DNA from: Alphaproteobacteria bacterium
Lineage (GTDB): Bacteria; Pseudomonadota; Alphaproteobacteria; WRAU01; Hepatincolaceae
DNA: 64,000 nucleotides
Assembly (NCBI GenBank): GCA_009780035.1
Contig: WRAU01000002.1
Coordinates: 62,001 to 126,000 of the forward strand
Direction: 5' to 3'
Below the pieces are notes generated by a model. That model was not told the DNA's origin. It ran no database searches and was given only the letters and a program-made list of their open reading frames with translations. Every line of letters starts with the position of its first letter. The first letter of the stretch is position 1. Of the stretch, positions 27,627 to 62,819 are shown piece by piece. Both the position numbers and the translations under genes were made by a program.

Positions 27627-29342
27627 ATGAAATTTGTAATAACGCTAAATATCCTAATGATTTTGCTATCTTTTAGCCTTAAAGCTGATGATGAGATTAT
27701 TAATGATATTAATATCCGCCAGCAAACAGATCAAAATATTTCCCGCCAGCAAAGAAACCTTCAGCAAACTACGCCATTTACAGGCGGGGCAAAAATTAAC
27801 ATTGAAAACACAAGGCAGCTGCAGATAAATGAAGAAGATATGGGGCGCTGTTTTACTTTCCATAATATTTCAGTAAGCGGCAATACAATTATTTCCACAA
27901 AAATAATTAAAACAATTACCGATAAATACTTAAATAAATGTATTGCCATTAGTATAGCGCAGGAGTATCTGCTTGAGGAAATTATAAACTTATATCAAAA
28001 GCAGGGTTATATTTTGGCAGTTCCTTATCTGCCAGAACAAAATCTCCAAACAGGAGTCTTAAAAATTATTATTGCTGAAGGGATTCTTGAAGATATTGAA
28101 TTTGATAGCGAAATTTTACCAAAACGCGTTGTCGGTATGGCTTTTTTTGGTATGCGCGGTCAGCCCATTAATATGCGGCGCTTAGAGCAAGCCTTAGAAA
28201 ACATTAATAAATTCGGTGCCGTTAGTGTAAATATGGATTTAAAGCCGGGCAATGCTGTTGGCGAAACTATTTTAGTATTGCGGTCATCACCGCTGCAGCA
28301 GTTTCATGCCGGCTTAAGATACGATAATGATTATAACAGTATTGCTTATAACAGTTTTCCAAATACAGATAATCATAAGCTGTCTGCCAATATGTCTTAC
28401 GCCCATTTGTTAGGAAATGATAGCTTATCGCTGAATGCTAACACTACTATTACAACAGCCAATGGCAATAATCAACAGGGAAGTTTTGGTGCTTCCTATG
28501 CTGCTCCTTTGGGTATTTGGGATTTTATTTATAATATCAACTACGACATAAGCCGTAATGTTAATAAAATGATGTTTGATACTTATGTTATTAGAACTGC
28601 TTCAATTACTGCATCTATGGATATAAAGCGGACTCTGGCGAGAGGGCAGCAATACATTTTGAAATCTTTAATCAGACCGAACTATTATACAACCGATACT
28701 TATTTAGACGGCATAAAAACAGCTGCCGGCTATGAGTTATATTTTTTAGATTTGGGGGTTGAGTATCAATATTTTTCCCAATATTTTATGCTGTATTCTA
28801 ATTTAACTTATACTCGCGGACAGCCTTTGTTTGGGCTGCCAACACAAGGAAGCAGAGACAATCAATATTTTATGATTCCGCAAAATAAATTTGATGCCGC
28901 AAAATTAACAACAAATCTTACTGTGCCAATTGTGAATAGAGTTTCGTTCATTAATAGGTTTTCTTCGCAATATTCCTCAGATATTTTATACACAATTAAC
29001 GATTTTGTAGTGGTATCATCAAATGGAGTTCGCGGCTATGAGGGAGTTTATGCTAATTATAACAGCGGATTCACGGCTCAAAATGAAATTAATGTAGATT
29101 TATTTCGTTTTGAAAATACCTATATCAGCGGCATATCTACGGCATACGGCTTTGATTCAGGTGCTGCCATAGACGGATATAACGGTAAAATTACTCATGA
29201 TAAGGTTTTAATGGGGTGGGCAGCTGAGCTGCGGACTAGCGGCAAGGTAGAGGCAGTAGTATCTTATGCCCGTCCGCTTAACCATATTTATATTCCTAAA
29301 AATCATGAGGTTGTAAAATTTAATATCAGTATTAATTTATAG
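27627..29342 (+). CDS. Two-partner secretion outer-membrane transporter (ShlB/FhaC family)
   Basis: This is an outer-membrane TpsB barrel that exports a large partner protein. A signal peptide (about residues 1-20) is followed by a Gln/Asn-rich stretch. POTRA-type domains start around FHNISVSGNTI (about 78) and YQKQGYILAVPYLPEQ, and a 16-strand-like barrel follows. The barrel carries the lid-loop VRGYEGVYA near residue 468, the hallmark VRGY. The length of 571 is normal. No large TpsA exoprotein gene is in the window; the next gene is a small repeat protein 8 bases away, which is unusual. Confidence 0.92.
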   Translation: MKFVITLNILMILLSFSLKADDEIINDINIRQQTDQNISRQQRNLQQTTPFTGGAKINIENTRQLQINEEDMGRCFTFHNISVSGNTIISTKIIKTITDKYLNKCIAISIAQEYLLEEIINLYQKQGYILAVPYLPEQNLQTGVLKIIIAEGILEDIEFDSEILPKRVVGMAFFGMRGQPINMRRLEQALENINKFGAVSVNMDLKPGNAVGETILVLRSSPLQQFHAGLRYDNDYNSIAYNSFPNTDNHKLSANMSYAHLLGNDSLSLNANTTITTANGNNQQGSFGASYAAPLGIWDFIYNINYDISRNVNKMMFDTYVIRTASITASMDIKRTLARGQQYILKSLIRPNYYTTDTYLDGIKTAAGYELYFLDLGVEYQYFSQYFMLYSNLTYTRGQPLFGLPTQGSRDNQYFMIPQNKFDAAKLTTNLTVPIVNRVSFINRFSSQYSSDILYTINDFVVVSSNGVRGYEGVYANYNSGFTAQNEINVDLFRFENTYISGISTAYGFDSGAAIDGYNGKITHDKVLMGWAAELRTSGKVEAVVSYARPLNHIYIPKNHEVVKFNISINL

Positions 29343-32275: not shown

Positions 32276-33583
32276 TTAAAATGATTTTGGCTTAAGGTGG
32301 CAATCATATTTACTGCAAGGTTTATCAGCAAAATTAGAACAATAGCTGCAAAGATAGCGGTGATTTTTACTTTGCTCTAAGGTAATATCTTTTAAAACTC
32401 TTGAAAATGTTTCAGGACGCATATTTAAAAATTTTGCAATACTGGCTTTATCAAAATTTTCCTCTTTTTTAGCAAGATCATTTTCTATTAAAAAAAGAGC
32501 CAGTCTTTCTTTAGCTTCATGGCAGTTTAAGTTTTCAAAGTAGTTATTTTTTCTAATAATATAATTTTCTTGATACTTTAAGAAATCATCTAAAATTTGA
32601 ATATTCTTATGAAAAATATCCTTAAATATTTTTTCACTCATAATAAAAAACAATGTATCATTGCTAAGGGTATTAATGGCAACATCTTTAGTGAAGAATT
32701 TAGAAAAAAACACATCGCCTTGCTTGCATAAATCTATAATTCCTTCATTGCCTTTAATATTAATTTTAGATATTTTTATTCTGCCTTTCAAACAAAAATA
32801 GACAGTATTTTCTATAAAGGGAATCGTATCGCTTTTACTAAACTTAAGCAGCTTGCCCTTTTGAAATAAGTGGCAGACTTCTCTTTTGCTTAAATTGGCG
32901 AGTAAATCGTTAGCTTTAGAATATTCAATTAAATCTATAGCATTTTTTTCAATGGCAATATAGGAAGATAAATCATGCAGCATAGATTTTTCTAAATTAA
33001 TAAAGTTATCAATTAATTTAGAAAGAATCTGAAAACATTCTTTAATATGAATAAAATTAGTATTGATATTTTTATTAAGCAAAGAATCTCTGCCGTCAAT
33101 AAAATCAAAAATAAATTTTCCAAATTCACCATATCGGTTCATAATAGATACAATATAATCAACAGGGATTTCGTTATTTTTATTGGCAAAAAAACTAAGA
33201 GTTCCTCTCTTAAAACCCAGCTCTTCAATTAAATTAATTAAAGATATATACCTTTCAGTCTGCGTATCCATTTCGCTTTGCAAAGCGGCTATAACTTTAT
33301 TAATAAGGGGGTTAATAATTAAATTGGTGTATTCGCTGACTATAGCAATAGTTTCAAGATTGCTTTTTTCGTCAATATCTAATAAAATATCTAAGTAAGG
33401 ATTAATGTCTTCTTTGTAAGGGCTGCTTGCTGCAAACTGAATTATTTTATCTTTAGTTTGATTTTTTTCTAAAGAAAAATTTGTAATGCTCTCCATTGAG
33501 GAAAGACCTCTGATTTTTTGCACAAGATATACAAAATCTAAAATAGATCTAACTTTAAACATATCTTCTTTTGCGGAAGCCAT
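32276..33583 (-). CDS. CRP/FNR-family regulator with N-terminal NIT-like domain and C-terminal Cys cluster
   Basis: A 435-residue regulator, about twice the length of FNR, read away from narK. Residues about 12-210 are all helical; VQKIRGLSS (21-29), SEYTNLIINPLI (83-94) and LIEELGFKRGTLS (118-130) resemble the nitrate/nitrite-sensing NIT domain (PF08376). Residues about 225-335 look like a CRP-type sensor barrel, and 350-400 hold the winged helix (SIAKFLNMRPETFSRVLKDI). The last 25 residues carry C412, C415, C423 and C428 (C-x2-C-x7-C-x4-C). The N-terminal cysteine cluster of FNR is absent. Inferred role: nitrate and perhaps oxygen or redox control of narKGHJI and the Moco genes. The NIT call needs an HMM check. 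Confidence 0.75.
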   Translation of the reverse strand: MASAKEDMFKVRSILDFVYLVQKIRGLSSMESITNFSLEKNQTKDKIIQFAASSPYKEDINPYLDILLDIDEKSNLETIAIVSEYTNLIINPLINKVIAALQSEMDTQTERYISLINLIEELGFKRGTLSFFANKNNEIPVDYIVSIMNRYGEFGKFIFDFIDGRDSLLNKNINTNFIHIKECFQILSKLIDNFINLEKSMLHDLSSYIAIEKNAIDLIEYSKANDLLANLSKREVCHLFQKGKLLKFSKSDTIPFIENTVYFCLKGRIKISKINIKGNEGIIDLCKQGDVFFSKFFTKDVAINTLSNDTLFFIMSEKIFKDIFHKNIQILDDFLKYQENYIIRKNNYFENLNCHEAKERLALFLIENDLAKKEENFDKASIAKFLNMRPETFSRVLKDITLEQSKNHRYLCSYCSNFADKPCSKYDCHLKPKSF

Positions 33584-33630: not shown

Positions 33631-33644
33631 TTGATATAAGTCAA
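33631..33644 (+). promoter_or_regulatory. FNR-type box upstream of narK
   Basis: TTGATATAAGTCAA matches the TTGAT-N4-ATCAA consensus at all but one position. A TAGAAT -10 box lies at 33667-33672; a start near 33679 would put the box centre at about -41.5, the class II activator position. Confidence 0.85.
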
Positions 33645-33707: not shown

Positions 33708-34979
33708 ATGTCAAGACAATTATTAGACTATAATCCAGAAGATGAAAAATTTTGGCAGGAAAAAGGCTCAAGAATAGCAAATAGAAATCTTTGGATTTCC
33801 ATACCTAATTTAACCTTAGCCTTTATTATTTGGTATATATTTTCAGCAGTGGTAATTAATTTAAATAAAGTTGGCTATAATTTAACGCCGCAGCAGGTTT
33901 TTGATTTAGTAGCATATCCGGGATTGTTCGGGGCAACTTTAAGAATCTTCTATGGGTTTTTAAATCCAGTTTTTGGTGGCAGAAACTGGACAACTTTTGC
34001 TACTCTTACGCTTATAATTCCAGCAGCGGGCATAGGATATATCGCACAAAATCCTGATACGCCTTATTGGGTATTAGTTGTATTTTCAATTCTTTCAGGT
34101 TTTGGTTCAGCAAACTTTTCTTCTTCTAATGCTAATATTCCAGCTTTTTTTCCTAAAAGCAAACAGGGTGGTGCTTTAGGATTAAATGCCGGGCTTGGCA
34201 ACTTAGGGATTTCTATTGTGCAGTTTACTACACCATTATTAATTGGCACCGGTATTTTTGTTTTTATTTTCGGTGAAGGGCAAACTATGGCAAACGGCGA
34301 GGTGCTTTACTTGCAGAATGCTGCTTTCTTTTGGATTATTCCATTAATAATTTTCGCACTTCTTGCTTTCTTTAAAATGGATAATTTAGAAACTAAAGAT
34401 ACCCCTAAATTTAAAGAGCAATTATTTATTTTTAAAAGAAAGCATACTTATGCCATAATGATTCTTTATATTATGACTTTCGGTGGTTTTGCAGGATTCG
34501 CAGCCAGCTTTCCAATGATTCTATCACAAAAATTCACAGGCTTTAATCCGCTGAGCGTGGCTTTTTTAGGTCCTCTTGTTGGTGCATTAATTCGTCCGGT
34601 TGGCGGCTGGCTTTCAGATAAAATCGGCGGTGCAATTATTACCTTGTTTGTTTTTATTGGTGTGGCAGTTTGTTTAGCCTCTATTACTTTTATTAATTCT
34701 TTAGTTCCTTTTGTTCTTATGTTCGTATTGCTGTTTGCTTTCTGCGGAATTGGCAACGGCTCTACTTTTGGCATGATTGCTGAAGTATTTACTCCTAAAG
34801 AAAAAGGAGCGGCAGTTGGATTTATTGCAGCCATTGGTGCCTATGGATCTTTCTTTATTCCTAAAATTTTCGGCATGGCAGGCTTGCATAACGGCTTATG
34901 GATTATTTTTGCTTTTAATTTTGTATGCCTTGCCATAACTTATTTTGGTTATTGTTTAAAAAGAAAAGTTCGCAATTAA
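33708..34979 (+). CDS. narK: Nitrate/nitrite transporter NarK
   Basis: This major facilitator family protein of the inner membrane has 423 residues and 12 hydrophobic segments. The family motifs are FGGRNWTTFATL (about residues 88-99) and GLGNLGISIVQ (about 160-170), and the second-half glycine motif is in GIGNGSTFGMIAEVF near 345. It brings in nitrate and may export nitrite, since no nitrite reductase is in the window. It is the first gene of narKGHJI, 16 bases ahead of narG, under an FNR-type promoter. Confidence 0.95.
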   Translation: MSRQLLDYNPEDEKFWQEKGSRIANRNLWISIPNLTLAFIIWYIFSAVVINLNKVGYNLTPQQVFDLVAYPGLFGATLRIFYGFLNPVFGGRNWTTFATLTLIIPAAGIGYIAQNPDTPYWVLVVFSILSGFGSANFSSSNANIPAFFPKSKQGGALGLNAGLGNLGISIVQFTTPLLIGTGIFVFIFGEGQTMANGEVLYLQNAAFFWIIPLIIFALLAFFKMDNLETKDTPKFKEQLFIFKRKHTYAIMILYIMTFGGFAGFAASFPMILSQKFTGFNPLSVAFLGPLVGALIRPVGGWLSDKIGGAIITLFVFIGVAVCLASITFINSLVPFVLMFVLLFAFCGIGNGSTFGMIAEVFTPKEKGAAVGFIAAIGAYGSFFIPKIFGMAGLHNGLWIIFAFNFVCLAITYFGYCLKRKVRN

Positions 34980-34995
34980 ATTTTTGAGGTGATAT

Positions 34996-37900
34996 ATGTC
35001 TTTCCTAAAAAAATTATTTTTTCTTAAAGAAGTAAGCTCATTTTCAGATTCTCATGGCTATGTATCAGCAGAAAGCCGTAAATCTGAAAGTTTCTATCGC
35101 AATAGATGGTCTTACGATAAAGTTGTCCGCTCTACGCATGGGGTAAATTGCACTGGAAGCTGCAGTTGGAATGTATATGTAAAGGGAGGCATAATCACTT
35201 GGGAAACTCAGGCAACAGATTATCCTAAAACAAGACCAGACCAACCGAATCATGAACCAAGAGGCTGCCCGCGTGGAGCTTCTTATTCTTGGTATTTATA
35301 TTCGGCACAGCGGGTTAAGTATCCATTAATTAGAGCCAGCTTATTAAAATTATGGAAAGAGGCTAAAAATACTTTTACCTCGCCAATGGATGCTTGGCAT
35401 AGCATTGTATCAGGCAGCAAAAAAGAAGAATATAAAAAAGAAAGAGGCTTAGGCGGTTTTGTGCGCCTTAATTGGGATACGGCAAACGAAATTATTGCTG
35501 CTGCCAATTTATACACTGCAAAAACTTTTGGACCGGATAGAATTGTGGGTTTTTCACCAATTCCAGCCATGTCTATGATTTCTTACGCAGCCGGAGCCAG
35601 ATACCTATCGCTGATGGGCGGGGTGTGCTTAAGTTTTTATGACTGGTATTGCGATCTTCCTGTATCTTCTCCGCAAACATGGGGCGAACAAACCGATGTT
35701 CCAGAATCTGCAGATTGGTATAACAGCGGCTATATTATTATGTGGGGCAGTAATGTGCCAATGACCCGCACGCCAGATGCCCATTTTATGAGCGAAGCAA
35801 GATACCGCGGCACAAAAATTTCGGTTATAACGCCAGATTTCTCTGAAGCAGCAAAATTTGCTGATAATTGGCTGCCGGTTAAGCAAGGCACAGACGCCGC
35901 CTTTGGTTTAGCAATGGGTCATGTAATATTAAATGAATTTTTTGTAAAAAAACAAGATGCTTATTTTACTGAATACACCAAACAATATTCCGATTTTCCT
36001 TTTCTTGTAAAATTAGTAGAAAAAGACGGTAAGCTAGTTCCCGACAGACTTCTAAAAGCTGAAGATTTTAAGGATTCTCTTGGCAGTGAATCTAATAATG
36101 AATGGAAACCAGTATTATATGATGAAATATCTAAGAAAATAGTAATTCCTAATGGCACCACAGGCAGCCGTTGGGATGGCAGCGGTAAATGGAATTTAGA
36201 TAAAAAGAATTTAATCACCGGCGAAGATATTAATCCTGCATTATCTTTAAAAGATTCGCATGATAATTTAGTTGAAGTTTTATTTCCTTATTTCGGCGGT
36301 GATACGGTAGAATATTTCAACAAAGATACTTCCATTGGCAACACTATCGCCCGTAAAGTTCCTGCTAAAAAAGTAGCGACTGTTGCCGGCGAAATTTATG
36401 TTGCAACCGTGTTTGATTTAACGCTTAGCAATTATGCAGTAGATAATGGGTTGAATGATAGTGCAGTAGCAAAATCTTATGATGATGATACTCCATTTAC
36501 ACCAAAATGGCAGGAAAAAATTACTGGCGTCCGTGCGTCTGACTGTATTAAAGTTGCTCGTGAATTTGCTGAAAATGCCTCTATTACGAAAGGAAAATCT
36601 TTAGTAATTATCGGGGCGGCTATGAACCATTGGTATCATAGTGATATGCAGTATCGTGCAGTAATTAATTTATTAATTATGTGCGGATGTATTGGGCAGT
36701 CTGGCGGCGGCTGGGCGCATTATGTTGGTCAGGAAAAACTCCGTCCGCAAAGCGGCTGGGTGCCGGTAGCCTTTGGACTAGATTGGAGCAGACCGCCAAG
36801 ACAAATGAACTCTACATCATTCTTCTACACCCATACTAATCAATGGCAGTATGAAAATTTACGCCCGAAAGATTTACTATCGCCTACTTACACTAACAAA
36901 GAATTTGAAGAGCTGTCTTTTATAGACTTCAATTTAAAATCTATAAGAATGGGTTTTCTACCAACGGCACCGCAGCTTAATATGAATCCGTTAGAAATTT
37001 CACAAAAAGCTAAGGCGGAAAATCTTGAAGCGGCGGCATATGTTGTTCGTGAGCTAAAAAATAAAAATCTTAAGTTTGCGGCGGAAGAACCAGAGGCAGC
37101 AGGCAATGCTCCGAAAAATTTATTTGTATGGCGTTCTAATTTGTTAGGATCAAGCGCTAAGGGGCACGAATATTTTTTAAAATATCTGCTTGGAACTCAG
37201 CACTCAGTGCTTAATACTACTATTAAAGAACAGGGATTAGAGCTGCCTAAATATGTAAAATATGAAGACAGCAAAGCAGAAGGTAAATTAGACTTGTTGG
37301 TAACCCTAGATTTTAGAATGTCAACCACTTGTTTATATTCCGATATTGTGCTGCCTACAGCTACTTGGTATGAGAAAAACGATTTAAATACCTCTGACAT
37401 GCACCCGTTTATTCACCCTTTATCTGAAGCACTAAATCCGCTTTATGAATCTAAAAGTGATTTAGATATTTATAACGGTTTTGCAAAAAAAGTTTCTCAG
37501 TTGGCAAGCAATTACTTAGAAACAGCAACAGATGTGGTGCTTGTGCCAATTCAGCATGATAGTCCGCAAGAAAACGCCCAAGCAGATATTAAAGACTGGG
37601 CGCTGGGAGAAGTTGAACCCATGCCAGGTAAAACCATGCCGAATATTGTGGTTGTGGAAAGAGACTACACTAAAATTCACGATAAATTTACCACCTTAGG
37701 TCCGCTGCTAGATAAACTTGGCAACAACGGCAAAGGCATAACTTGGAATACAGAAAGCGAAATCCATCATTTAAAAGAATCTCATGGCGAATCTAAAGCC
37801 AATAGCCGTCCAATGATGGAAACTGCCATTAAAGTTGCCGATACAATTTTAACTCTTGCTCCGGAAACTAACGGCGAAGTTGCTTATAAATCTTGGGAGG

Positions 37901-38682
37901 CTTTAGAGAAATCTACCGGGCGTCATCATACCCATTTAGTATCAGGAAGACGCGAAGAAAGAATCAGCTTTTTTGATATTCAAAGACAGCCTAGAAAAAT
38001 TATTACCTCGCCAATCTGGAGCGGTGTAGATAGTGAAGAAGTGAACTATACAGGATATTATACCAATGTTCACGAAAATATTCCCTTTAGAACACTAACA
38101 GGAAGACAGCATATTTACCAAGATCATCCTTGGATGCTGGCTTTCGGTGAAGGTTTTGCTACTTATAAGCCGCCTGTTAATGTATCTACTGTTGAGAATG
38201 TAAAAAACAGATTAGGCAGCGATGACTATGTAGTGCTGAATTTTGGCACGCCGCATTCTAAATGGACTATCCACAGCACTTATTCTGATAATCTAATTAT
38301 GCTGACGCTTAGCCGCGGCGGTCCGCACATTTGGATTTCTGAGGCTGACGCTAAAAAAATTAATCTGCAGGATAACGATTTTGTTGAAGCAGTCAACGCT
38401 AACGGCGTGGTAACTGCCAAAGTAGTGGTAAGTCAAAGAATGCCTCGCGGTCTTGCCTTTATGTATCATGCGCAGGAAAAAATTATCAATACGCCGCTAT
38501 CGCAAATTACAGGAAATAGAGGCGGCATTCATAATAGTTTATCTAAGGTTTTGGTAAAGCCTACGCATATGATTGGCGGATATTCGCATCTATCTTATGG
38601 CTTTAACTACTATGGAACAGTAGGCTGCAATAGGGACGAATTTATTGCGATTAAAAAGCTAAACAAAGTAGAATTTGAATAA
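34996..38682 (+). CDS. narG: Respiratory nitrate reductase alpha subunit
   Basis: This is the catalytic subunit with Mo-bis-MGD, at the cytoplasmic face of the inner membrane, which reduces nitrate to nitrite with quinol electrons. The 1228 residues are close to the usual 1240-1250. The N-terminal FS0 cluster ligands are in THGVNCTGSCSW with the later RGCPRGASYSW cysteine. The molybdenum ligand aspartate lies in SFYDWYCDLP near residue 215. A vestigial twin-arginine-like start (SRKSESFYRNRW) matches NarG. It overlaps no neighbour, and narH starts 10 bases after its stop. Confidence 0.98.
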   Translation: MSFLKKLFFLKEVSSFSDSHGYVSAESRKSESFYRNRWSYDKVVRSTHGVNCTGSCSWNVYVKGGIITWETQATDYPKTRPDQPNHEPRGCPRGASYSWYLYSAQRVKYPLIRASLLKLWKEAKNTFTSPMDAWHSIVSGSKKEEYKKERGLGGFVRLNWDTANEIIAAANLYTAKTFGPDRIVGFSPIPAMSMISYAAGARYLSLMGGVCLSFYDWYCDLPVSSPQTWGEQTDVPESADWYNSGYIIMWGSNVPMTRTPDAHFMSEARYRGTKISVITPDFSEAAKFADNWLPVKQGTDAAFGLAMGHVILNEFFVKKQDAYFTEYTKQYSDFPFLVKLVEKDGKLVPDRLLKAEDFKDSLGSESNNEWKPVLYDEISKKIVIPNGTTGSRWDGSGKWNLDKKNLITGEDINPALSLKDSHDNLVEVLFPYFGGDTVEYFNKDTSIGNTIARKVPAKKVATVAGEIYVATVFDLTLSNYAVDNGLNDSAVAKSYDDDTPFTPKWQEKITGVRASDCIKVAREFAENASITKGKSLVIIGAAMNHWYHSDMQYRAVINLLIMCGCIGQSGGGWAHYVGQEKLRPQSGWVPVAFGLDWSRPPRQMNSTSFFYTHTNQWQYENLRPKDLLSPTYTNKEFEELSFIDFNLKSIRMGFLPTAPQLNMNPLEISQKAKAENLEAAAYVVRELKNKNLKFAAEEPEAAGNAPKNLFVWRSNLLGSSAKGHEYFLKYLLGTQHSVLNTTIKEQGLELPKYVKYEDSKAEGKLDLLVTLDFRMSTTCLYSDIVLPTATWYEKNDLNTSDMHPFIHPLSEALNPLYESKSDLDIYNGFAKKVSQLASNYLETATDVVLVPIQHDSPQENAQADIKDWALGEVEPMPGKTMPNIVVVERDYTKIHDKFTTLGPLLDKLGNNGKGITWNTESEIHHLKESHGESKANSRPMMETAIKVADTILTLAPETNGEVAYKSWEALEKSTGRHHTHLVSGRREERISFFDIQRQPRKIITSPIWSGVDSEEVNYTGYYTNVHENIPFRTLTGRQHIYQDHPWMLAFGEGFATYKPPVNVSTVENVKNRLGSDDYVVLNFGTPHSKWTIHSTYSDNLIMLTLSRGGPHIWISEADAKKINLQDNDFVEAVNANGVVTAKVVVSQRMPRGLAFMYHAQEKIINTPLSQITGNRGGIHNSLSKVLVKPTHMIGGYSHLSYGFNYYGTVGCNRDEFIAIKKLNKVEFE

Positions 38683-38692
38683 GGAAGACACC

Positions 38693-40177
38693 ATGAAAGT
38701 AAGAGCACAGATAGGAAAAGTCTTAAATTTAGATAAGTGCATCGGCTGCCATACCTGCAGCGTATCGTGCAAGCAAGTGTGGACTTCTCGTGAAGGCGTT
38801 GAATATGCTTGGTTTAATAATGTGGAAAGCAAACCGGGAGTTGGCTATCCTAAAAATTGGGAAGATCAAGATAAATACAACGGCGGCTGGGAAAGCAAGG
38901 GGGGCAAATTAAAGCCTAAGATTGGCGGCAAAATTAAAAATTTATCAAATATCTTTGCTAATTCTAATATGCCAAGCATTGATGACTACTACGAACCATT
39001 TACTTTTGAGTATTCTAAACTGCAGAATGCACCTAAGTCTAAAACTAATCCAACTGCTCGGGCAGTATCAGTTTTAACTGGGCAAAAAATGGAAAAAGTT
39101 GAAAATGGACCTAACTGGGAAGATCAACTGGGCGGCGAGTTTGAAAAAAGATCTGCTGATTATAATTTTAAAGATGAAAAGCATAAAGAAATTTATGGTG
39201 AATTTGAAAAAACTTTTATGTTCTACCTGCCAAGACTCTGCGAGCATTGTTTAAACCCTACCTGTGTAGCGGCATGCCCTAGCGGAGCTGCATATAAGCG
39301 GGAAGAGGACGGCATAGTTTTAATAGATCAAGAAAAATGCAAAGGCTGGCGGTTATGTGTTAGCGGCTGTCCTTATAAAAAAATCTATTTTAACTGGGCG
39401 TCGCAAAAGTCTGAAAAATGCAATTTCTGTTTTCCAAGAATAGAAGCTGGTTTGCCAACGCTCTGCAGTGAAACTTGCGTGGGCAGAATTAGATATTTAG
39501 GAGTATTGTTATACGATGCTGATAAAATATCAGCAATGGCAAACATAAAAAGTGAAAAAGAGCTTTATGAAGCCCAAGTTTCCATGTTTTTAGATCCATT
39601 TGATGAAAATGTGATTGCTGAGGCTAAAAAAGAAGGCATTCCGCAGGCATGGCTTGATGCAGCTCAGAAATCTCCGGTTTATAAAATGATAAAAGACTGG
39701 GGCATAGCATTCCCATTGCATCCGGAATATAGAACATTACCTATGGTTTGGTATATTCCGCCTTTATCGCCGATTCAAAGAAATTTTGATGAAGAAATTA
39801 CCGCAGGTAATATCATTCCAACTTTAAAATCCCTAAGTATTCCGCTGTCTTATTTGGCGAATTTATTGACAGCTGGAGATATAGCGCCAATTGAAAGCGC
39901 TCTTAACAAAATGCTTTCTATGCGGGCATTTATGCGAAGCAAACTGATAGAAAAAAATCCGCAGGAGGCTTTCTTAAATGCGGGGCTTACGCAGGAACAA
40001 TGTGAGGAAATGTATAAATATTTAGCTATTGCCGATTATACTGATAGATTTGTGGTGCCAACTTCTCACAAAGAATACGCAGAAGATGCCTTTGAACTAA
40101 AAGCATCTTGCGGATTTAATTTCGAGCAGGGCAATACAGTTTCTAAAAGAGGCAGAAATCTTTTCGGTGGAAAATAG
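38693..40177 (+). CDS. narH: Respiratory nitrate reductase beta subunit
   Basis: This iron-sulfur subunit passes electrons from NarI haem to NarG. The cluster ligands are visible: CIGCHTCSVSCK near the start, LCEHCLNPTCVAACPSGA in the middle, and then CKGWRLCVSGCPYKK with tryptophan where a fourth cysteine would be (the 3Fe-4S site). CNFCFPR and CSETCVGRIRYLG complete the set. The start is ATG 38693, after AAGGAAG; an upstream TTG at 38675 would only add a non-conserved extension. The product is 494 residues. Confidence 0.97.
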   Translation: MKVRAQIGKVLNLDKCIGCHTCSVSCKQVWTSREGVEYAWFNNVESKPGVGYPKNWEDQDKYNGGWESKGGKLKPKIGGKIKNLSNIFANSNMPSIDDYYEPFTFEYSKLQNAPKSKTNPTARAVSVLTGQKMEKVENGPNWEDQLGGEFEKRSADYNFKDEKHKEIYGEFEKTFMFYLPRLCEHCLNPTCVAACPSGAAYKREEDGIVLIDQEKCKGWRLCVSGCPYKKIYFNWASQKSEKCNFCFPRIEAGLPTLCSETCVGRIRYLGVLLYDADKISAMANIKSEKELYEAQVSMFLDPFDENVIAEAKKEGIPQAWLDAAQKSPVYKMIKDWGIAFPLHPEYRTLPMVWYIPPLSPIQRNFDEEITAGNIIPTLKSLSIPLSYLANLLTAGDIAPIESALNKMLSMRAFMRSKLIEKNPQEAFLNAGLTQEQCEEMYKYLAIADYTDRFVVPTSHKEYAEDAFELKASCGFNFEQGNTVSKRGRNLFGGK

Positions 40178-40186
40178 AGGAAAATT

Positions 40187-40768
40187 ATGGACTATAAAAT
40201 ATTATCATATTTGCTGTTTTATCCCGATGAAGAGTATTTAGCCAGCTTAAGTGAATTAGAGGCTGAGGTAAAGGATAGCAGTTTGCAGTTAGATGTATCT
40301 GCATTTGTTAAGCAGATTACGGCAATTGATAAATATGAAGCCATGAGTAATTATGTGGCATATTTTGATAATAATCCCAGTCTTTCTTTATATCTATTTG
40401 ACCATATAATAGGGGATTCTAAAGAAAGAGGGCAGGCGCTGGTAGATTTAAAAGCTCTGTATGCAGAAAATAATTTTGAAGTAAATTCTCAGTATCTGCC
40501 AGATTTTATTCCGCTTTTTTTAGAATTTTTAAGTGTTGTAGATGAAGAAGCTGCTAAGCTGCTGCTGATTGAGACCTACGAGGTTATGAATACTTTATAT
40601 TTAAGACACAAAAAGGTTGATAGTATTTATAGTTTTATTTTTAAACACCTAATTCAAAAAATGGGAAAAGAAGTTAAAGAAATTGAGGTTAAAGTGCTTG
40701 ATTCTAAAGAAATAGATGAATTATGGCAAGAGCAGGAAGTAATTTTTGCTAATAATGTAAAAAATTAA
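40187..40768 (+). CDS. narJ: Nitrate reductase assembly chaperone NarJ
   Basis: This dedicated chaperone binds apo-NarG and allows cofactor insertion and membrane attachment; it is not part of the final enzyme. The 193 residues are predicted all-helical, with YLLFYPDEEYL at the start and SLYLFDHIIGDSKERGQALVDL near residues 66-88 (the conserved H and R-G-x-A region). LPDFIPLFLEFL follows. It sits between narH and narI, 9 and 15 bases apart. Confidence 0.95.
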   Translation: MDYKILSYLLFYPDEEYLASLSELEAEVKDSSLQLDVSAFVKQITAIDKYEAMSNYVAYFDNNPSLSLYLFDHIIGDSKERGQALVDLKALYAENNFEVNSQYLPDFIPLFLEFLSVVDEEAAKLLLIETYEVMNTLYLRHKKVDSIYSFIFKHLIQKMGKEVKEIEVKVLDSKEIDELWQEQEVIFANNVKN

Positions 40769-40783
40769 AAAAAAGAGGAAAAC

Positions 40784-41482
40784 ATGGAAGATATAATATT
40801 AAGCGTTTTATTTGGCTTTTATCCTTATTTAGCTTTGATAGTTTTTGTGCTTGGAACTGCCTTGCGGTTAAAAAACAACCCTTACAGTGTATCGGCAAAA
40901 TCTTCGCAGTTTCTTAATAAAGTAAGCGATAGAGCTTTGTTTATTGCTTCTATGGCAGGATTTCACATTGCCATAATTGTAATTTTGCTGGGACATTTTG
41001 GAGGTTTTTTAACGCCAAGAGAAGTATTTTTAGATATGGGAATAACCGATGAATCTCATGCTGAAATGGCACATATTATCGGCGGAGTAGCTGCGGTTGT
41101 TGGGCTTTTATCTATGCTTTATCTATTAAAAAGAAGATTTTTCAATGATAGAATTTCTATAAATAGCAGCATAGGCGATAAACTGATATTATTAGTTATT
41201 TTTATTCAGCTGTTTTTAGGATTCTTAACTATATTTATAAAAAGCCCAGTAGAGGCAGCTGAAAAAGTTGTGTTGCTAGGCTATTACTTTCAAGGGGTAT
41301 TAACTTTTCATCTTGATTCTTACTTGTTTGTTATGGATATGCCGATAATTACTTTACTGCATATTTTTTTAGGCTGGACTTTATTTTTGCTTTTCCCGTT
41401 TACAAGACTAATACATGTAATAACTGCACCATTGCATTATTTGGTTCGCCGCGGATATCAAATTGTTAGAAGAAAGGCATAA
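40784..41482 (+). CDS. narI: Respiratory nitrate reductase gamma subunit
   Basis: This membrane cytochrome b oxidises quinol and passes electrons to NarH through two haems. The 232 residues form five membrane segments. Haem-ligand histidines are seen in GFHIAIIVILLGHFGG (first pair) and in the C-terminal LLHIFLGWTLFLLFPFTRLIHV (second pair). It is the last gene of the operon, and a perfect 18-base inverted repeat follows its stop directly. Confidence 0.97.
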   Translation: MEDIILSVLFGFYPYLALIVFVLGTALRLKNNPYSVSAKSSQFLNKVSDRALFIASMAGFHIAIIVILLGHFGGFLTPREVFLDMGITDESHAEMAHIIGGVAAVVGLLSMLYLLKRRFFNDRISINSSIGDKLILLVIFIQLFLGFLTIFIKSPVEAAEKVVLLGYYFQGVLTFHLDSYLFVMDMPIITLLHIFLGWTLFLLFPFTRLIHVITAPLHYLVRRGYQIVRRKA

Positions 41483-41642: not shown

Positions 41643-42059
41643 TTAAAATTTATTCAGCCAATGGTTGCCATTGTTGACATCTATTTCTTTTTTAAAGAAA
41701 GGAGCTTTAATTTTTAAAAAATCCATAATGTAAGCGCAAGCATCAAAAGCTGCCTGTCTATGCTTTGCTGATACAAGAATTAAAACAATTTGCTCCTGTG
41801 AGCCTATAAATCCTATACGATGAACTATACGGACATCGTTTAGTTTATAAGCATCAATAGCATTTGCGATAATATTTTCAAGCTGTTTATATGCCATAGG
41901 AATATAGCAGTCTAAATAAATGCCTTTAAGATTGTGGGTTTCGTTGAAGTCTCTTACATAGCCAATAAAACTTACAACCGCGCCGGATTTTTGTTTATCA
42001 AGCTGCTGCATCTCTGCTTCAATGGAAAAATCTTCGGTTTTTATTATAACACTCGGCAA
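41643..42059 (-). CDS. moaE: Molybdopterin synthase catalytic subunit
   Basis: This large subunit of molybdopterin synthase transfers sulfur from MoaD thiocarboxylate to cPMP. The family blocks are GAVVSFIGYVRDFN near residues 26-39, YIPMAYKQLENI near 52-63, RIVHRIGFIGSQEQIVLILVSAKHRQAAFDAC near 78-110, and the active-site lysine region KAPFFKKEID near 117-126. The length of 138 is typical. It is the last gene of moaBCDE, 2 bases after moaD. Confidence 0.96.
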   Translation of the reverse strand: MPSVIIKTEDFSIEAEMQQLDKQKSGAVVSFIGYVRDFNETHNLKGIYLDCYIPMAYKQLENIIANAIDAYKLNDVRIVHRIGFIGSQEQIVLILVSAKHRQAAFDACAYIMDFLKIKAPFFKKEIDVNNGNHWLNKF

Positions 42060-42061
42060 AT

Positions 42062-42304
42062 TTATCCTCCGGTTACAGGCGGAAAAAAAGCAACCTCATC
42101 GGTGTTTGCTACAATGGTATTAAGATCGGCAAATTCTAAATTTACAGATGCTAAAATAGATTCATTATTTAATATGTTGAATTTCTCACCATACTCCGTA
42201 ATTAGTTTGTTTTTCAATTCACGCACAGTTAAGGGGGTGTTAATCTCTAGGATAATTTCTTCGGCTAAACTTTCTTTCAACCAAGCAAAAAACTTAATTT
42301 TCAT
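42062..42304 (-). CDS. moaD: Molybdopterin synthase sulfur carrier subunit
   Basis: This small ubiquitin-fold protein of 80 residues ends in the obligatory Gly-Gly (PPVTGG), which is adenylated by MoeB and turned into a thiocarboxylate. The DEVAFFPPVTGG end is typical. It overlaps moaC by 11 bases, which suggests coupled translation. Confidence 0.95.
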   Translation of the reverse strand: MKIKFFAWLKESLAEEIILEINTPLTVRELKNKLITEYGEKFNILNNESILASVNLEFADLNTIVANTDEVAFFPPVTGG

Positions 42305-42770
42305 TTTCCCTCACAAAATGTCCGCTTTTGCCGCCGCTTTTTTCCAGCAGCTTAATTTCACTGATTACAGCAAACTTATCAACCGCTTTAATCATATCAT
42401 AAATACCTAGTAAAGCACAAGATGCACTAGTAAGAGCTTCCATTTCAACGCCAGTTTTACCAAAAGTTTTAACGGTTGCAATAACTACAACTTTATTGCT
42501 GCAGAGTTCTATTTTAATATCAACTTTATCTAATAAAACTGTATGGCATAAAGGAATAAGTGAGGAAGTTTGCTTAGCGCCATTGATGCCGGCAATTTTG
42601 GCAACTGTATAAATATCTCCTTTTTTTAAGGAGTTTTCTTGAATTTTTTGCATAGCTAAAGCAGAAACTGTAATATTGCCAACTGCTACGGCAATACGAT
42701 TAGTGGATTCTTTATCACTGACATCTACCATCGAGATTTCGCCCGCCTTGTTAATATGCGATAGCTCCAT
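42294..42770 (-). CDS. moaC: Cyclic pyranopterin monophosphate synthase MoaC
   Basis: This enzyme acts after MoaA to form cPMP. The protein is 158 residues, with SHINKAGEISMVDVSDKESTNRIA at the start, AKIAGINGAKQTSSLIPLCHTVLL near residues 57-80 (catalytic lysine and histidine region), and TGVEMEALTSASCALLGIYDMIKAVDK near 105-132. The order moaB-moaC-moaD-moaE is one operon on the minus strand. Confidence 0.97.
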   Translation of the reverse strand: MELSHINKAGEISMVDVSDKESTNRIAVAVGNITVSALAMQKIQENSLKKGDIYTVAKIAGINGAKQTSSLIPLCHTVLLDKVDIKIELCSNKVVVIATVKTFGKTGVEMEALTSASCALLGIYDMIKAVDKFAVISEIKLLEKSGGKSGHFVRENEN

Positions 42771-42772
42771 AA

Positions 42773-43288
42773 TTAATATCCCAATTTAATAAGGGCGGCA
42801 AAATTGCATGGACGAACTGTAGAATTCAACTGCAAACTAAGTATTTTTTCATAGGCAGTTTTGCAAGCATTGGTAGATCCTGGAATGCAGAAAATCAGCT
42901 TTTTATCAATAAATCCGCCAAACGCATTAGACTGCATGGCAGATGTTCCAATTTCTGCAAAAGAAATATGGCGGAATATTTCACCGAAGCCTTCAATGTG
43001 CTTAGTAATAAGCGGATAAATTGCTGATATGGTGTTATCTCTTTTTGTAAATCCTGTGCCGCCGGTAGTAATTATTACTTCAGTGTTATTCGGCAAAGTT
43101 TGAATAGCTGTTCTTATGGCTGCAATATCATCAACCACAATTAATTTTTGAATAACATGATGACCATCAGCCAAAAGCAATTCCTTTAAGGTGCTGCCAG
43201 AGGTATCGGTATTTTCATCTCTAGTGTCGGAAATTGTAATAACCGCCACATTAAGCGGTTCAAAATTATCTAAAAATGCTTTTGCCAT
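42773..43288 (-). CDS. moaB: Molybdenum cofactor adenylyltransferase-type protein MoaB
   Basis: This protein is of the MoaB/Mog family, which adenylates molybdopterin before molybdenum insertion. The 171-residue protein has VAVITISDTRDENTDTSG near residue 15 and the signature EVIITTGGTGFTKRDNTI near 70-87; IFCIPGSTNACKTAYEKI follows. Size and motif fit MoaB better than Mog. It is the first gene of the minus-strand operon and shares an FNR-boxed intergenic region with moaA. Confidence 0.93.
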   Translation of the reverse strand: MAKAFLDNFEPLNVAVITISDTRDENTDTSGSTLKELLLADGHHVIQKLIVVDDIAAIRTAIQTLPNNTEVIITTGGTGFTKRDNTISAIYPLITKHIEGFGEIFRHISFAEIGTSAMQSNAFGGFIDKKLIFCIPGSTNACKTAYEKILSLQLNSTVRPCNFAALIKLGY

Positions 43289-43335: not shown

Positions 43336-43349
43336 TTGATATATATCAA
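43336..43349. promoter_or_regulatory. Perfect FNR-type box between moaB and moaA
   Basis: TTGATATATATCAA is a perfect TTGAT-N4-ATCAA palindrome. It lies 48 bases from the moaB start and 61 from the moaA start, so it could serve both directions. Confidence 0.85.
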
Positions 43350-43409: not shown

Positions 43410-44384
43410 ATGTTGCAAGATAGTTTTGGAAGAAATTTTAAATACTTAAGATTATCTCTAACTAGAAGATGCAATTTCCAGTGCAATTACTGCTTGCCGC
43501 AGGGTTATGATAAATCTAATATTAAGGAAGAACTAAATCTTACGGAGTTCATTAACTTGGCTAAGGCTTTTGCCGAGATGGGGGTTGAAAAAATTCGCTT
43601 GACAGGCGGTGAACCAACCCTGCGGAAAGATTTTTTTGCAATAGTCGATAATTTATCAAAAATAGAAGGAATGCAGCTAGCCCTTACTACCAATGGTTTT
43701 AAACTAAAAGAAAATGCTGAAAAATACCTTGCTGCCGGCATTAAAAATATTAATATCTCTATTGACAGCCTATCCGCAGATACTTTCAAATCTATTACAA
43801 AAACTAATCTTCTTCCTAATATTTTAGAGGGGTTAGATAAATGTTTGGGTCTGCCTTTCAATAAAGTAAAAGTCAATGTGGTGCTATTGAAAAACTTTAA
43901 CTTCAATATGATAGAAAAATACTTGGAGTTTGTTAAAAGTTCGCCGCTGGATATTCGTTTTATTGAGCTAATGCCAACTAAAGACAATCAAGATTTTTAT
44001 AAATCTGAATATGTTTCCTCCCAAGCCTTAAAAGACTATCTGGAAAAAAATGGCTGGGTTCTAGCTGGCAAAAGTGCTACTGATGGTCCTGCTAATAATT
44101 TTTATAATAAAAATTATCTCGGCAGAATTGGGATAATCAATCCTTACAGCAGTGTTTTTTGCGATAATTGCAACCGTCTGCGAGTGGATTCCTATGGTGA
44201 ATTAGTTTTATGTTTATTAAACTTCGGCAAGTATTCCTTACGGGAATATTTAAGCCATACTAATCAAAAAGAAGATTTAAAATTGGCAATTATAAAAGCA
44301 TTAAACATTAAGCCTGAGAAAAATTTACTGAATATTGACAAAAATTTAATTGCTAATAGCAACTTTTCACAAATTGGAGGGTAG
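43410..44384 (+). CDS. moaA: GTP 3',8-cyclase MoaA
   Basis: This radical SAM enzyme starts Moco synthesis from GTP. The N-terminal cluster is in RRCNFQCNYC (about residues 20-29) and the second cluster in FCDNCNRLRVDSYGELVLC (about 250-268). The C-terminal Gly-Gly (QIGG) needed for activity is present. The length of 324 is typical. moeA starts 3 bases after its stop. Confidence 0.97.
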   Translation: MLQDSFGRNFKYLRLSLTRRCNFQCNYCLPQGYDKSNIKEELNLTEFINLAKAFAEMGVEKIRLTGGEPTLRKDFFAIVDNLSKIEGMQLALTTNGFKLKENAEKYLAAGIKNINISIDSLSADTFKSITKTNLLPNILEGLDKCLGLPFNKVKVNVVLLKNFNFNMIEKYLEFVKSSPLDIRFIELMPTKDNQDFYKSEYVSSQALKDYLEKNGWVLAGKSATDGPANNFYNKNYLGRIGIINPYSSVFCDNCNRLRVDSYGELVLCLLNFGKYSLREYLSHTNQKEDLKLAIIKALNIKPEKNLLNIDKNLIANSNFSQIGG

Positions 44385-44387
44385 GCT

Positions 44388-45599
44388 ATGAATAAATTAA
44401 CCTCTTTTGTTGAAGCAATTGCCATTATTAAAGCAAATACTTTAACAATGCAGACAGAGATTATTCCTTTAGAGGAATCTATAGATAGAATTTTAGCAGA
44501 AGATGCAATTGCTGCAATTGCTAACCCGGCATTTAATAATTCTGCGGTTGATGGCATAGGCATTACTAAGCAGACTCTTAATAATCTTCAAAAAAACAAT
44601 ACTCCGCTGAAAATTAAAAAAACTATTTTAGCAGGAGATATTCTTGATAATACTTCTTTGCTAGAAAATGAATGCTATCATATTATGACTGGCAGCCCAG
44701 TTCCGCCATCTATCAGCACTATATTTTTAATTGAAGATACGGCTACAGTTGGTGAAGAGGTTTTTATAAATGCTCCGCTTGCTGATAATCAAAATATTCG
44801 TGTAAAAGGTGAAGATTTTAAGGCAGGGGAGACTCTGGTAAAAAAATTTACGCGTTTGAAATTTAATCATATCAGCTTGCTTGCAGCAAGCGGGATTGCA
44901 AATGTAAGTGTATTTAAAAAACCTCGCGCTGCCTTTTTTACCAGCGGTAAAGAAACTGTAGAGGTTGGGCAAAAGCTCCTCGATGGGCAAATTTATAATT
45001 CTAATATTCTTACCATGAGAGTATTTTTAGAAAATTTAGGATTTGAGGCATTTGTTCTTAAAAATGTATCTGATAGCATAGAAGAACTTCAAGAAAACAT
45101 TGCAGAAGCTCAAAGTTTAGGAGTTGATATTATTATAAGCAGCGGGGCTGTTTCAATGGGAGTTGAAGATATTATCAAGCACTATCTTTTAAAAAATACG
45201 CGGGTGTTATACAACGGATTGAAAATTCGTCCTGGCAAGCCTAATATGCTGGCGCTGCTTGAAAATAATATGCTTTATTTTGCGTTGCCCGGCAATCCAG
45301 TATCAACTGCCGCTGCCTTATATTTTTTAGTGCAGGCATATTATAATTTTGCTAATGAAATTTCTTTTGATGGTAGTATGGCGCATATTGATAGTGATTA
45401 TAATAAAAAAAAGGATTTTACTTTTTTTCTTAGGGGAAAGTCTTATTTAGAAAACAGCAGGTTAAAAGTAAAAATATTAGAAAAACAAGGATCGCATATA
45501 CTCTCTAGTTTAGCAGAAGCCAACTGTTTTGTTAGAGTAAGCGAAACTGATAACTATATTTTAAAAAACTCTCTATGTGAAATTTATGAAATCAAATAA
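44388..45599 (+). CDS. moeA: Molybdopterin molybdenumtransferase MoeA
   Basis: This enzyme inserts molybdate into adenylated molybdopterin. The 403 residues show NSAVDGIGI near residue 45 (usually SAMDGYA or SAVDGYA), the IMTGSPVPPS block near 100, GAVSMGVEDIIK near 248 and KIRPGKPNMLALL then ALPGNPVSTAAALYF near 280-310. All signature regions are intact. It overlaps the start of mobA by 14 bases. Confidence 0.95.
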   Translation: MNKLTSFVEAIAIIKANTLTMQTEIIPLEESIDRILAEDAIAAIANPAFNNSAVDGIGITKQTLNNLQKNNTPLKIKKTILAGDILDNTSLLENECYHIMTGSPVPPSISTIFLIEDTATVGEEVFINAPLADNQNIRVKGEDFKAGETLVKKFTRLKFNHISLLAASGIANVSVFKKPRAAFFTSGKETVEVGQKLLDGQIYNSNILTMRVFLENLGFEAFVLKNVSDSIEELQENIAEAQSLGVDIIISSGAVSMGVEDIIKHYLLKNTRVLYNGLKIRPGKPNMLALLENNMLYFALPGNPVSTAAALYFLVQAYYNFANEISFDGSMAHIDSDYNKKKDFTFFLRGKSYLENSRLKVKILEKQGSHILSSLAEANCFVRVSETDNYILKNSLCEIYEIK

Positions 45600-46164
45600 A
45601 ATATCAATGGCAGGAGTTGTTATCGCCGGCGGGCTGTCATCACGAATGCAGCAGGATAAAAAATTTTTGCAGTATCAAAATAAAACTTTTTTAGATATTG
45701 CCATAGATAATTTAAAACCGCTTTGCCAGAGTGTTTTTTTAAGTTTAGCTTCATCTGCAGAATTTAGTGCCTCAATCAACATTATAGAAGATGAATTTAA
45801 AAATATGGGACCTATTGCCGGAATTTTTTCTTGCTTGAATTATAAAATTCAAGAAGATTACATTTTATTTCTTCCTGTGGATATGCCGCTTTTAACGCCG
45901 CAGATTCTTAAAAATTTAATTGCTAATATTAAGAATAAGAAGAGTAATGGCATAAATTATGAAAACCATGTTTTTCCCTTTATTATTAAAAATTCTCAAG
46001 AGGTGCTGCATATTCTGCAAAATTTAATCAACAAGAACAGCTATTCCATAAAAAATTTTCTAGCTGCAGTTAATAGTATAAGTTTACCAATTGCCGAGGA
46101 AGATAAAAAACATTTGCAGAATATAAATTATTACGAACAATTTTTAGGATTACCTAATGCGTGA
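45586..46164 (+). CDS. mobA: Molybdenum cofactor guanylyltransferase MobA
   Basis: This enzyme attaches GMP to make the guanine dinucleotide form used by NarG. The N-terminal GVVIAGGLSSRMQQDKKFL loop and LPVDMPLLTP near residue 88 are typical. The ATG at 45586 is used; GTG 45577 and ATG 45607 are in frame alternatives. The length of about 192 is normal. It overlaps moeA upstream and moeB downstream, so the four plus-strand genes are one operon. Confidence 0.92.
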   Translation: MKSNKISMAGVVIAGGLSSRMQQDKKFLQYQNKTFLDIAIDNLKPLCQSVFLSLASSAEFSASINIIEDEFKNMGPIAGIFSCLNYKIQEDYILFLPVDMPLLTPQILKNLIANIKNKKSNGINYENHVFPFIIKNSQEVLHILQNLINKNSYSIKNFLAAVNSISLPIAEEDKKHLQNINYYEQFLGLPNA

Positions 46165-61472: not shown

Positions 61473-61524
61473 TTAGTTTTAAAGCAGATATAAAACAATT
61501 AACGCTTTACTTTAAAAGAACTAA
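61473..61524. repeat. Inverted repeat between chrA genes and hflX
   Basis: TTAGTTTTAAAG (61473-61484) pairs with CTTTAAAA...CTAA (61510-61524), with a three-base bulge. It lies between convergent genes, right at both stop codons, and may end transcription. Confidence 0.4.
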
Positions 61525-62819
61525 CTGATGCTATTGGTAAAAATCTTGATATTCTTATTGCTAAACCTGCTGTTGATAAAATTAATATCTTTTTCTTGAG
61601 CTAGCACTGTTAATGTAATTTGTTTATCTTTAGTGTTTTTCTCTAAGATAGTAGTGTTGTTATATAAATAAACTAATACTTCATTATCTAAATAAGAAAT
61701 CTCTAATTTAATTTTGAATTTACTTTTATTGACATTATCAAAGATTCTTTGCTTTAATAAATCTAAATTGAATCCTCCGACTGCCGAAATTAAAATTCCA
61801 TTTCTGCTTAATGTTAGTTCATTAAAGAATTTTTTTTCCTCTGGCACTAGAAGATCTGCTTTATTGTAAACTTCGATAACTTTCTGTTTATAAGTTTCTT
61901 CACTGATGCCAATTTCTTTTAGCACAGTTTGAACAGAATTGATTTGGTCTTCATAATTTTTTTGATTGCTGTCAATTACATGCAGAATTAAATCCGCATC
62001 AATTATGCCGTCTAAAGTAGAATGAAAGGCTTCTACTAGTTGATGCGGAAGATCTGAAATAAAACCAACAGTGTCTGATAAAATTGCTTTTTGTTTATAA
62101 GGCAGTATTAAAATGCGGCTTGTAGTATCCAAAGTAGCAAAAAGCAAATCCTGCGATAATACATTCTCATCTGTTAAGGCATTAAAAAGCGTAGATTTTC
62201 CTGAATTAGTATAACCAACAAGAGCAATTGTTTTTATATTGAATTTTTTTCTTGAGTGTGTTTGAATGCTGCGATTCTGTCTTAATTTATCTAAACGAAC
62301 TTTAAGATAGTCAATTTTATCGGCTATCATGCGGCGATCTAGTTCTTTTTGAGTTTCACCAGGACCGCCCACAGCGCCAGACCCGCCCCGCTGTCTTTCA
62401 AGGTGCGACCATGCCTTAACCAAACGCGATTTTTGATAATAAAGCGCTGCTAAATTAGACTGCAGCTTCCCTTCGTGGCTAGCTGCCCGCAAGGCAAAAA
62501 TATTAATAATTAAGGCACTTCTATCAAGAACTTTTACTTTAAGAAAATTTTCTAAATTTCTTTGCTGAATAGCACTAAGGGGATGGTTAATAATTAATGC
62601 ATCAACTTCAGAGTTTTGCAAAACAGGCTGTAAATCTTCAAGATTACCCTTATTAATTAAGGTGGCGGGATTAATTTCTGATAAGTTTATCATAGAGCTT
62701 CCCACCACTATTAAATTTAACGCCTCAGCAAGATTAATAGTTTCCTGCAATTTATAATCGTAATCAATAATGTTTTTTTTATTTTTTAAACAGATTTGGA
62801 TTACAAAACAGTTATTCAT
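61521..62819 (-). CDS. hflX: GTPase HflX
   Basis: This ribosome-associated GTPase is linked to rescue of stressed ribosomes. The N-terminal HflX domain has VDALIINHPLSAIQQRNLE near residue 73. The linker has RGGSGAVGGPGETQKELDRRMI near 143-164. The G domain has G1 GYTNSGKSTLFNALT, G3 DTVGFISDLPHQLVEAFHSTL, and NKADLL. The length of 432 is normal. It lies 21 bases after hfq on the same strand. Confidence 0.96.
   Translation of the reverse strand: MNNCFVIQICLKNKKNIIDYDYKLQETINLAEALNLIVVGSSMINLSEINPATLINKGNLEDLQPVLQNSEVDALIINHPLSAIQQRNLENFLKVKVLDRSALIINIFALRAASHEGKLQSNLAALYYQKSRLVKAWSHLERQRGGSGAVGGPGETQKELDRRMIADKIDYLKVRLDKLRQNRSIQTHSRKKFNIKTIALVGYTNSGKSTLFNALTDENVLSQDLLFATLDTTSRILILPYKQKAILSDTVGFISDLPHQLVEAFHSTLDGIIDADLILHVIDSNQKNYEDQINSVQTVLKEIGISEETYKQKVIEVYNKADLLVPEEKKFFNELTLSRNGILISAVGGFNLDLLKQRIFDNVNKSKFKIKLEISYLDNEVLVYLYNNTTILEKNTKDKQITLTVLAQEKDINFINSRFSNKNIKIFTNSIS

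Follow-up and report, generated by a model that had tools for sequence, protein, structure and literature searches.

A putative one-component nitrate regulator with a NIT-like sensor half on a CRP/FNR core, encoded beside the nar operon of a reduced alphaproteobacterial genome

Introduction

To our knowledge, it is not settled by what means many Alphaproteobacteria that lack NarXL detect nitrate, and the nar locus in the 64-kb stretch of contig WRAU01000002.1 analyzed here (the window) raises the question in a concrete form: which protein could tell this nitrate reductase operon that nitrate is present? A gene divergent from narK encodes a protein of 435 residues (P0001; 32276-33583, minus strand), which an earlier note, made from the letters alone, took for a regulator of nar and moa genes that joins a NIT-like nitrate sensor to a CRP/FNR core. 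We consider it probable, from homology, motifs, synteny, boxes, and the absence of other candidate sensors, that P0001 is a one-component nitrate-responsive regulator of this kind and that it would activate the nar and moa genes.

Results

NIT-CRP fusions form a family to which P0001 belongs

A class-wide search of 385 genomes with the window protein as query brought up CRP proteins that were for the most part of the ordinary kind; a single match, at locus L009, was a relative of 479 residues (P0002) with a NIT domain in front of the CRP core (Pfam NIT, E=1.5e-30). A second genome scan started from an alignment in which eight related CRPs were combined with P0001 and P0002. It added 25 NIT-CRP fusions, including one fragment at the edge of a contig, so that 26 are found outside the window. 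The hosts (Pseudokordiimonas, Robiginitomaculum, Emcibacter, Asticcacaulis, Hyphomonadaceae, Sphingomonadales, and two gammaproteobacterial metagenome-assembled genomes) are mostly Alphaproteobacteria. All eight fusions that were scanned with Pfam carry NIT, cNMP_binding, and HTH_Crp_2 above the cut-off, the NIT domain scoring 28-136 bits (cut-off 24.9; best E=2.4e-39) and L123, at 28.2 bits, being a more divergent case. Since fusions with Pfam support occur in many genomes, the architecture is real and widespread and is not specific to the window.

P0001 aligns with this family in a single collinear stretch (HHalign, residues 76-432, E=1.4e-16 as a single-comparison value) while being only about 20% identical to it. 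Read from these comparisons of sequence, P0001 is a divergent, shortened, and collinear member of the NIT-CRP family. A scan of genome contigs with P0001 as the sole query gave no match, and a plasmid tblastn search listed only ordinary Crp/Fnr proteins, none covering 80% of the query. NIT loci with reading frames of 400-480 residues were also considered as possible fusions, and of these only L009/L064 (P0002) matched the CRP query as well. As a separate observation, L112 and L114 encode near-alike NIT-CRPs in metagenome-assembled genomes labeled Lysobacterales and Alcanivoracaceae, which suggests transfer out of the Alphaproteobacteria or mislabeled bins.

The earlier note knew of no described NIT-CRP fusion, and we likewise found no published description in the open full-text literature (subscription literature was outside the scope), though the 26 fusions exist in other genomes. 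A 2025 survey of the CRP/FNR family mentions no NIT-CRP protein; since Pfam detects the architecture, it may already be recorded in domain databases. What that note missed is that NIT-CRP is a whole family, that it has a four-cysteine (Cys4) tail, and that there is an FNR-like candidate regulon.

The C-terminal half is of the CRP type

The reading frame is without internal stop, and the three segments that had been singled out as NIT-like are present in P0001: VQKIRGLSS (21-29), SEYTNLIINPLI (83-94), and LIEELGFKRGTLS (118-130). Compared directly with Pfam, NCBIfam, and PDB, P0001 showed weak CRP matches only, the Pfam matches of the C-terminal half (HTH_Crp_2, E=0.0017; cNMP_binding, E=0.0075) both falling under the cut-off. 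Residues 180-429, in contrast, matched the fused-family profile at E=5.5e-19, and in Foldseek the whole-protein AlphaFold model (predicted local distance difference test, pLDDT, 80) matched structures of CRP and GlxR (E about 1e-9). The predicted barrel and winged helix thus stand, and with a cNMP-type barrel and a Crp-type winged helix P0001 belongs to the CRP/FNR superfamily. A recognition helix of the ExxSR type, shared with the family, is present (PETFSR, 390-395), and FNR-type boxes lie at the candidate targets. The output is of the CRP type by Pfam and Foldseek, with no ANTAR RNA-binding domain. The N-terminal cysteine cluster of E. coli FNR is absent from P0001, whose residues 1-182 contain no cysteine.

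The N-terminal half is NIT-like by motif and collinearity and weak when scored alone

Modeled separately, residues 1-222 are all-helical (AlphaFold2; pLDDT 86, predicted template modeling score 0.84). In a MAFFT alignment, Q22-K-I-R25-G26 of P0001 falls on the family motif Q-x-E-R-G of helix 1, E120...R126 falls on K-E-x-x-G-x-x-R of helix 5, and YTNLIINPLI falls on the family motif Yt-x-x-I-x-P, so that the pocket motifs (Q22/R25 and E120/G123/R126) are retained. When the sensor half was scored alone against the NIT profile of the fused family, it reached 11.2 bits, a score equaled by none of the 4412 scored shuffles. Ranked among 4348 natural fragments, it reached 11.9 bits (E=0.02), the best non-NIT fragment reaching 10.9, and every fragment listed above it came from a NIT-containing locus.

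Several results weigh against a functional NIT domain in P0001. Alone, the sensor half is a weak and marginal NIT match, though above chance. The domain-profile and fold comparisons that the earlier note proposed did not turn out in its favor: PF08376 (NIT) has no direct Pfam match in P0001, and Foldseek found no match for the modeled sensor half at E<=0.001, with NasR (4AKK) not among the 50 matches listed. The glutamate beside each pocket arginine is lost (I24 and K125), the NIT helices are shortened, and the wing of the helix-turn-helix (HTH) is about nine residues shorter than in relatives, so ligand affinity or function may have drifted. An HHalign comparison of the N-terminal part with a generic NIT was likewise not significant, and a PF08376 search of the window's own genome gave no match while the same search was positive in 111 of 299 genomes of the phylum. 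A profile of the family NIT half with P0001 included does match NasR 4AKK (E=1.8e-21), the signal coming from the relatives and not from P0001. We base the NIT assignment on collinearity with the family, the pocket motifs, and the genomic context; the all-helical, NIT-like N-terminal half that had been described holds in this sense and not as a domain recognizable by itself.

The locus and its boxes resemble those of the relatives

Gene names in the window were read from translations and are supported by matches among the loci. As in the family, the P0001 locus has a divergent narK, nearby moa genes (moaE-moaC-moaB and moaA-moeA-mobA, about 8 kb further along), and a TTGAYN4RTCAA box. Among the 25 fusion loci, 22 have nar genes, typically with a divergent narK first or second and then narG and narH, and 12 have molybdenum-cofactor genes downstream; the box occurs near the regulator start in 18 and between the regulator stop and moaA in 9. 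In the window, this pattern was observed three times against 0.5 expected. Two of the three are the boxes that had been named before the family was known, TTGATATAAGTCAA and TTGATATATATCAA. The third (61962-61975) lies inside an open reading frame of 432 residues (61521-62819) and is probably there by chance. That a CRP/FNR-type protein with a NIT-like sensor controls the nar and moa genes is supported by way of the relatives, whose linkage and boxes are conserved, and not directly.

A four-cysteine tail is shared with NIT-less relatives

P0001 ends in the four-cysteine tail LCSYCSNFADKPCSKYDC. Nearly all fusions, and the closest NIT-less CRPs, carry a C-terminal tail of the form CX2CX7CX7C, which two relatives have with one extra residue. 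In a tree of the CRP core, 69 CRPs that lack a Cys4 tail form a supported block, and the proteins that have one lie outside it. The P0001 branch is very long (3.14) and joins a second long branch; its exact position is for this reason uncertain and was not used. By analogy with Bacillus Fnr, in which C-terminal cysteines bind [4Fe-4S] (PMC3520743), the tail probably holds a metal or Fe-S centre that would give an oxygen or redox input; this precedent makes a redox centre a reasonable guess, and zinc is possible.

CRPs that have the tail and no NIT domain adjoin narK in Micavibrio-type genomes (L124-L135, e.g., L128:7935-8711), and L120 and L121 are without NIT yet branch among the NIT-CRPs in the tree. 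The Micavibrio-type arrangement indicates that NIT is dispensable for linkage to nar, a point against our preferred reading, and that a nar regulator common to both groups either acquired the NIT domain or lost it. A further Cys4-tail CRP (L175:3979-4761) was seen in a record titled Rickettsia typhi, a metagenome-assembled genome whose organism label is doubtful.

No CRP-type protein other than P0001 was found in the genome

In the 1.42-Mb genome, P0001 is the only match to PF00027. NarX and NarQ were not found by Pfam: the four HATPase matches are two kinases, a GyrB-like protein, and a MutL-like protein, with no NIT or NarX-type domain among the kinases. Genome-wide, TTGAYN4RTCAA occurs 21 times, against 6 for a reversed control, and 12 of the 21 boxes were scored intergenic. 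Among the genes beside the intergenic boxes are nar, moa, ubiU, dcuC, and sodB, as well as gdh, a porin gene, and genes for dicarboxylate or glutamate symporters. Boxes lie directly upstream of ubiU (L197:554-1537), dcuC (L185:64-1440), and sodB (L193:887-1468), the identities of UbiU (at equivalog level) and DcuC having passed NCBIfam. UbiU belongs to anaerobic ubiquinone synthesis. The E. coli ubiUV genes are under Fnr control (PMC10470549). Since no second CRP-type protein was found and boxes precede ubiU, dcuC, and sodB, P0001 probably also does the job of FNR.

The features of the window are collected in Table 1. Apart from them, a ShlB/FhaC-type two-partner secretion transporter adjoining a small open reading frame was noted at 27627-29342.

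Table 1. Positions of the regulator gene, its parts, and its putative targets in the window
Feature	Position	Strand	Basis
NIT-CRP-Cys4 regulator gene (P0001), 435 residues	32276..33583	-	no internal stop; divergent from narK; family collinearity
NIT-like sensor half, residues 1-222; last helix (180-222) runs into CRP barrel	32918..33583	-	all-helical AlphaFold2 model; profile score
QxxRG motif of NIT helix 1, residues 22-26, QKIRG	33506..33520	-	Q and R in 24/24 relatives covering the site; usual E is I24
ExxGxxR motif of NIT helix 5, residues 120-126, EELGFKR	33206..33226	-	R126 aligns with NasR R176; K125 stands where E usually precedes R
CRP-type barrel, dimer helix, and HTH, residues 223-398; recognition helix 390-395	32390..32917	-	family profile; alignment; Foldseek
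Four-cysteine tail, residues 411-428 (C412, C415, C423, C428), C-terminal end region	32300..32353	-	alignment with relatives
FNR-type box TTGATATAAGTCAA between regulator and narK	33631..33644	.	pattern; near regulator start in 18/25 relatives
narK-narG-narH-narJ-narI, putative target operon (narK start 33708)	33708..41482	+	translations; conserved synteny
moaE, moaC, moaB, putative targets	41643..43288	-	translations; box at 43336
Perfect FNR-type box TTGATATATATCAA between moaB(-) and moaA(+)	43336..43349	.	pattern; box before moaA in 9 relatives
moaA, moeA, mobA, putative targets	43410..46164	+	translations; conserved moa/moe linkage

Discussion

We hypothesize that nitrate (or nitrite) would bind the N-terminal helical bundle between R25 of helix 1 and R126 of helix 5 and would shift the long helix 180-222, which in the model is continuous with the CRP half, so that the signal reaches the CRP dimer. 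The dimer HTH would then be set for TTGAYN4RTCAA boxes, leading to activation of narKGHJI and the molybdenum-cofactor genes, and the cysteine tail beside the HTH could gate box binding by redox state. The ligand, DNA binding, the direction of regulation, and the metal are what we infer here. A wider proposal, which we offer only tentatively, is that this one soluble protein has two inputs, nitrate at the NIT pocket and the oxygen or redox state at a Cys4 metal centre, and that, with no other CRP/FNR protein in a genome reduced to 1.4 Mb, it directs all of the anaerobic programme (nar, moa, ubiU, dcuC, and sodB).

Other explanations have to be weighed. The NIT half of P0001 may have degenerated, leaving a descendant of a NIT-CRP that no longer binds nitrate and acts through the Cys4 tail as a nitrate-blind, FNR-like anaerobic activator. 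The very long branch, the lost glutamates and shortened helices, the weak NIT score, the FNR-like candidate regulon, and the NIT-less L120 and L121 would all fit such a history. We nevertheless regard it as unlikely, as both QxxRG and ExxGxxR are retained in a protein so dissimilar from the family elsewhere and the sensor half is modeled with high confidence. It would be more surprising still if the pocket mainly answered another small anion or metabolite (nitrite or other) in place of nitrate: the NIT family is annotated as sensing nitrate and nitrite, and the pocket of P0001 does differ at I24 and K125, but the constant neighbor is a nitrate reductase with narK transporters.

The missing Pfam match and the absence of NasR among the Foldseek matches listed could also be taken to mean that P0001 is a CRP/FNR regulator of the ordinary kind whose helical N-terminal extension is unrelated, the resemblance to NIT being due to chance. 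Homology with true NIT-CRPs is collinear over both halves and the cysteine tail, the genomic place and boxes are shared with them, and the shuffles never scored as well. Because of this collinearity, the synteny, and the motifs, we reject chance resemblance as very improbable and retain a nitrate-responsive NIT-CRP regulator as the preferred reading.

If this reading is true, a nitrate receptor fused to a DNA-binding protein and encoded beside its target would detect nitrate without the usual sensor kinases, and the conservation of the Cys4 tail hints that the molecule may receive a second signal as well. The family is accessible to experiment through its cultured members (Pseudokordiimonas caeni and Asticcacaulis tiandongensis), and a compact one-component nitrate switch could become a biosensor part.

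Among known systems, NarX and NarQ resemble NIT-CRP, as read here, in sensing nitrate through a helical pocket with a G-x-x-R motif (PMC8199190), but they are transmembrane two-component systems, whereas P0001 is a one-component protein without a membrane or kinase part. NarR of Paracoccus, compared here by description only, is a nitrate/nitrite-responsive CRP/FNR-type regulator of nar that replaces NarXL in Alphaproteobacteria and is described as lacking a [4Fe-4S] cluster (PMC8139620). FNR and Bacillus Fnr have in common with NIT-CRP the CRP/FNR fold, the ExxSR recognition motif, TTGAT-N4-ATCAA boxes, and anaerobic targets, and Bacillus Fnr also has C-terminal cysteines; NIT-CRP differs in having NIT in front and a different cysteine spacing (CX2CX7CX4-7C). 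The Micavibrio-type CRPs share the core, the Cys4 tail, the nar neighborhood, and the box and differ by being without NIT. NasR of Klebsiella (a NIT-ANTAR antiterminator, PDB 4AKK) is a cytoplasmic one-component nitrate sensor with a NIT domain, as NIT-CRP would be, and its pocket arginines align with those of the family. E175 and R176 of its helix 5 are predicted pocket residues (PMC7496416), and both pocket arginines are kept in NasR while one glycine is replaced by glutamine (PMC8199190). In NIT-CRP, where the NIT domain of P0001 is shortened, the output is a CRP-type DNA-binding unit with an extra Cys4 tail in place of the RNA-binding ANTAR domain of NasR.
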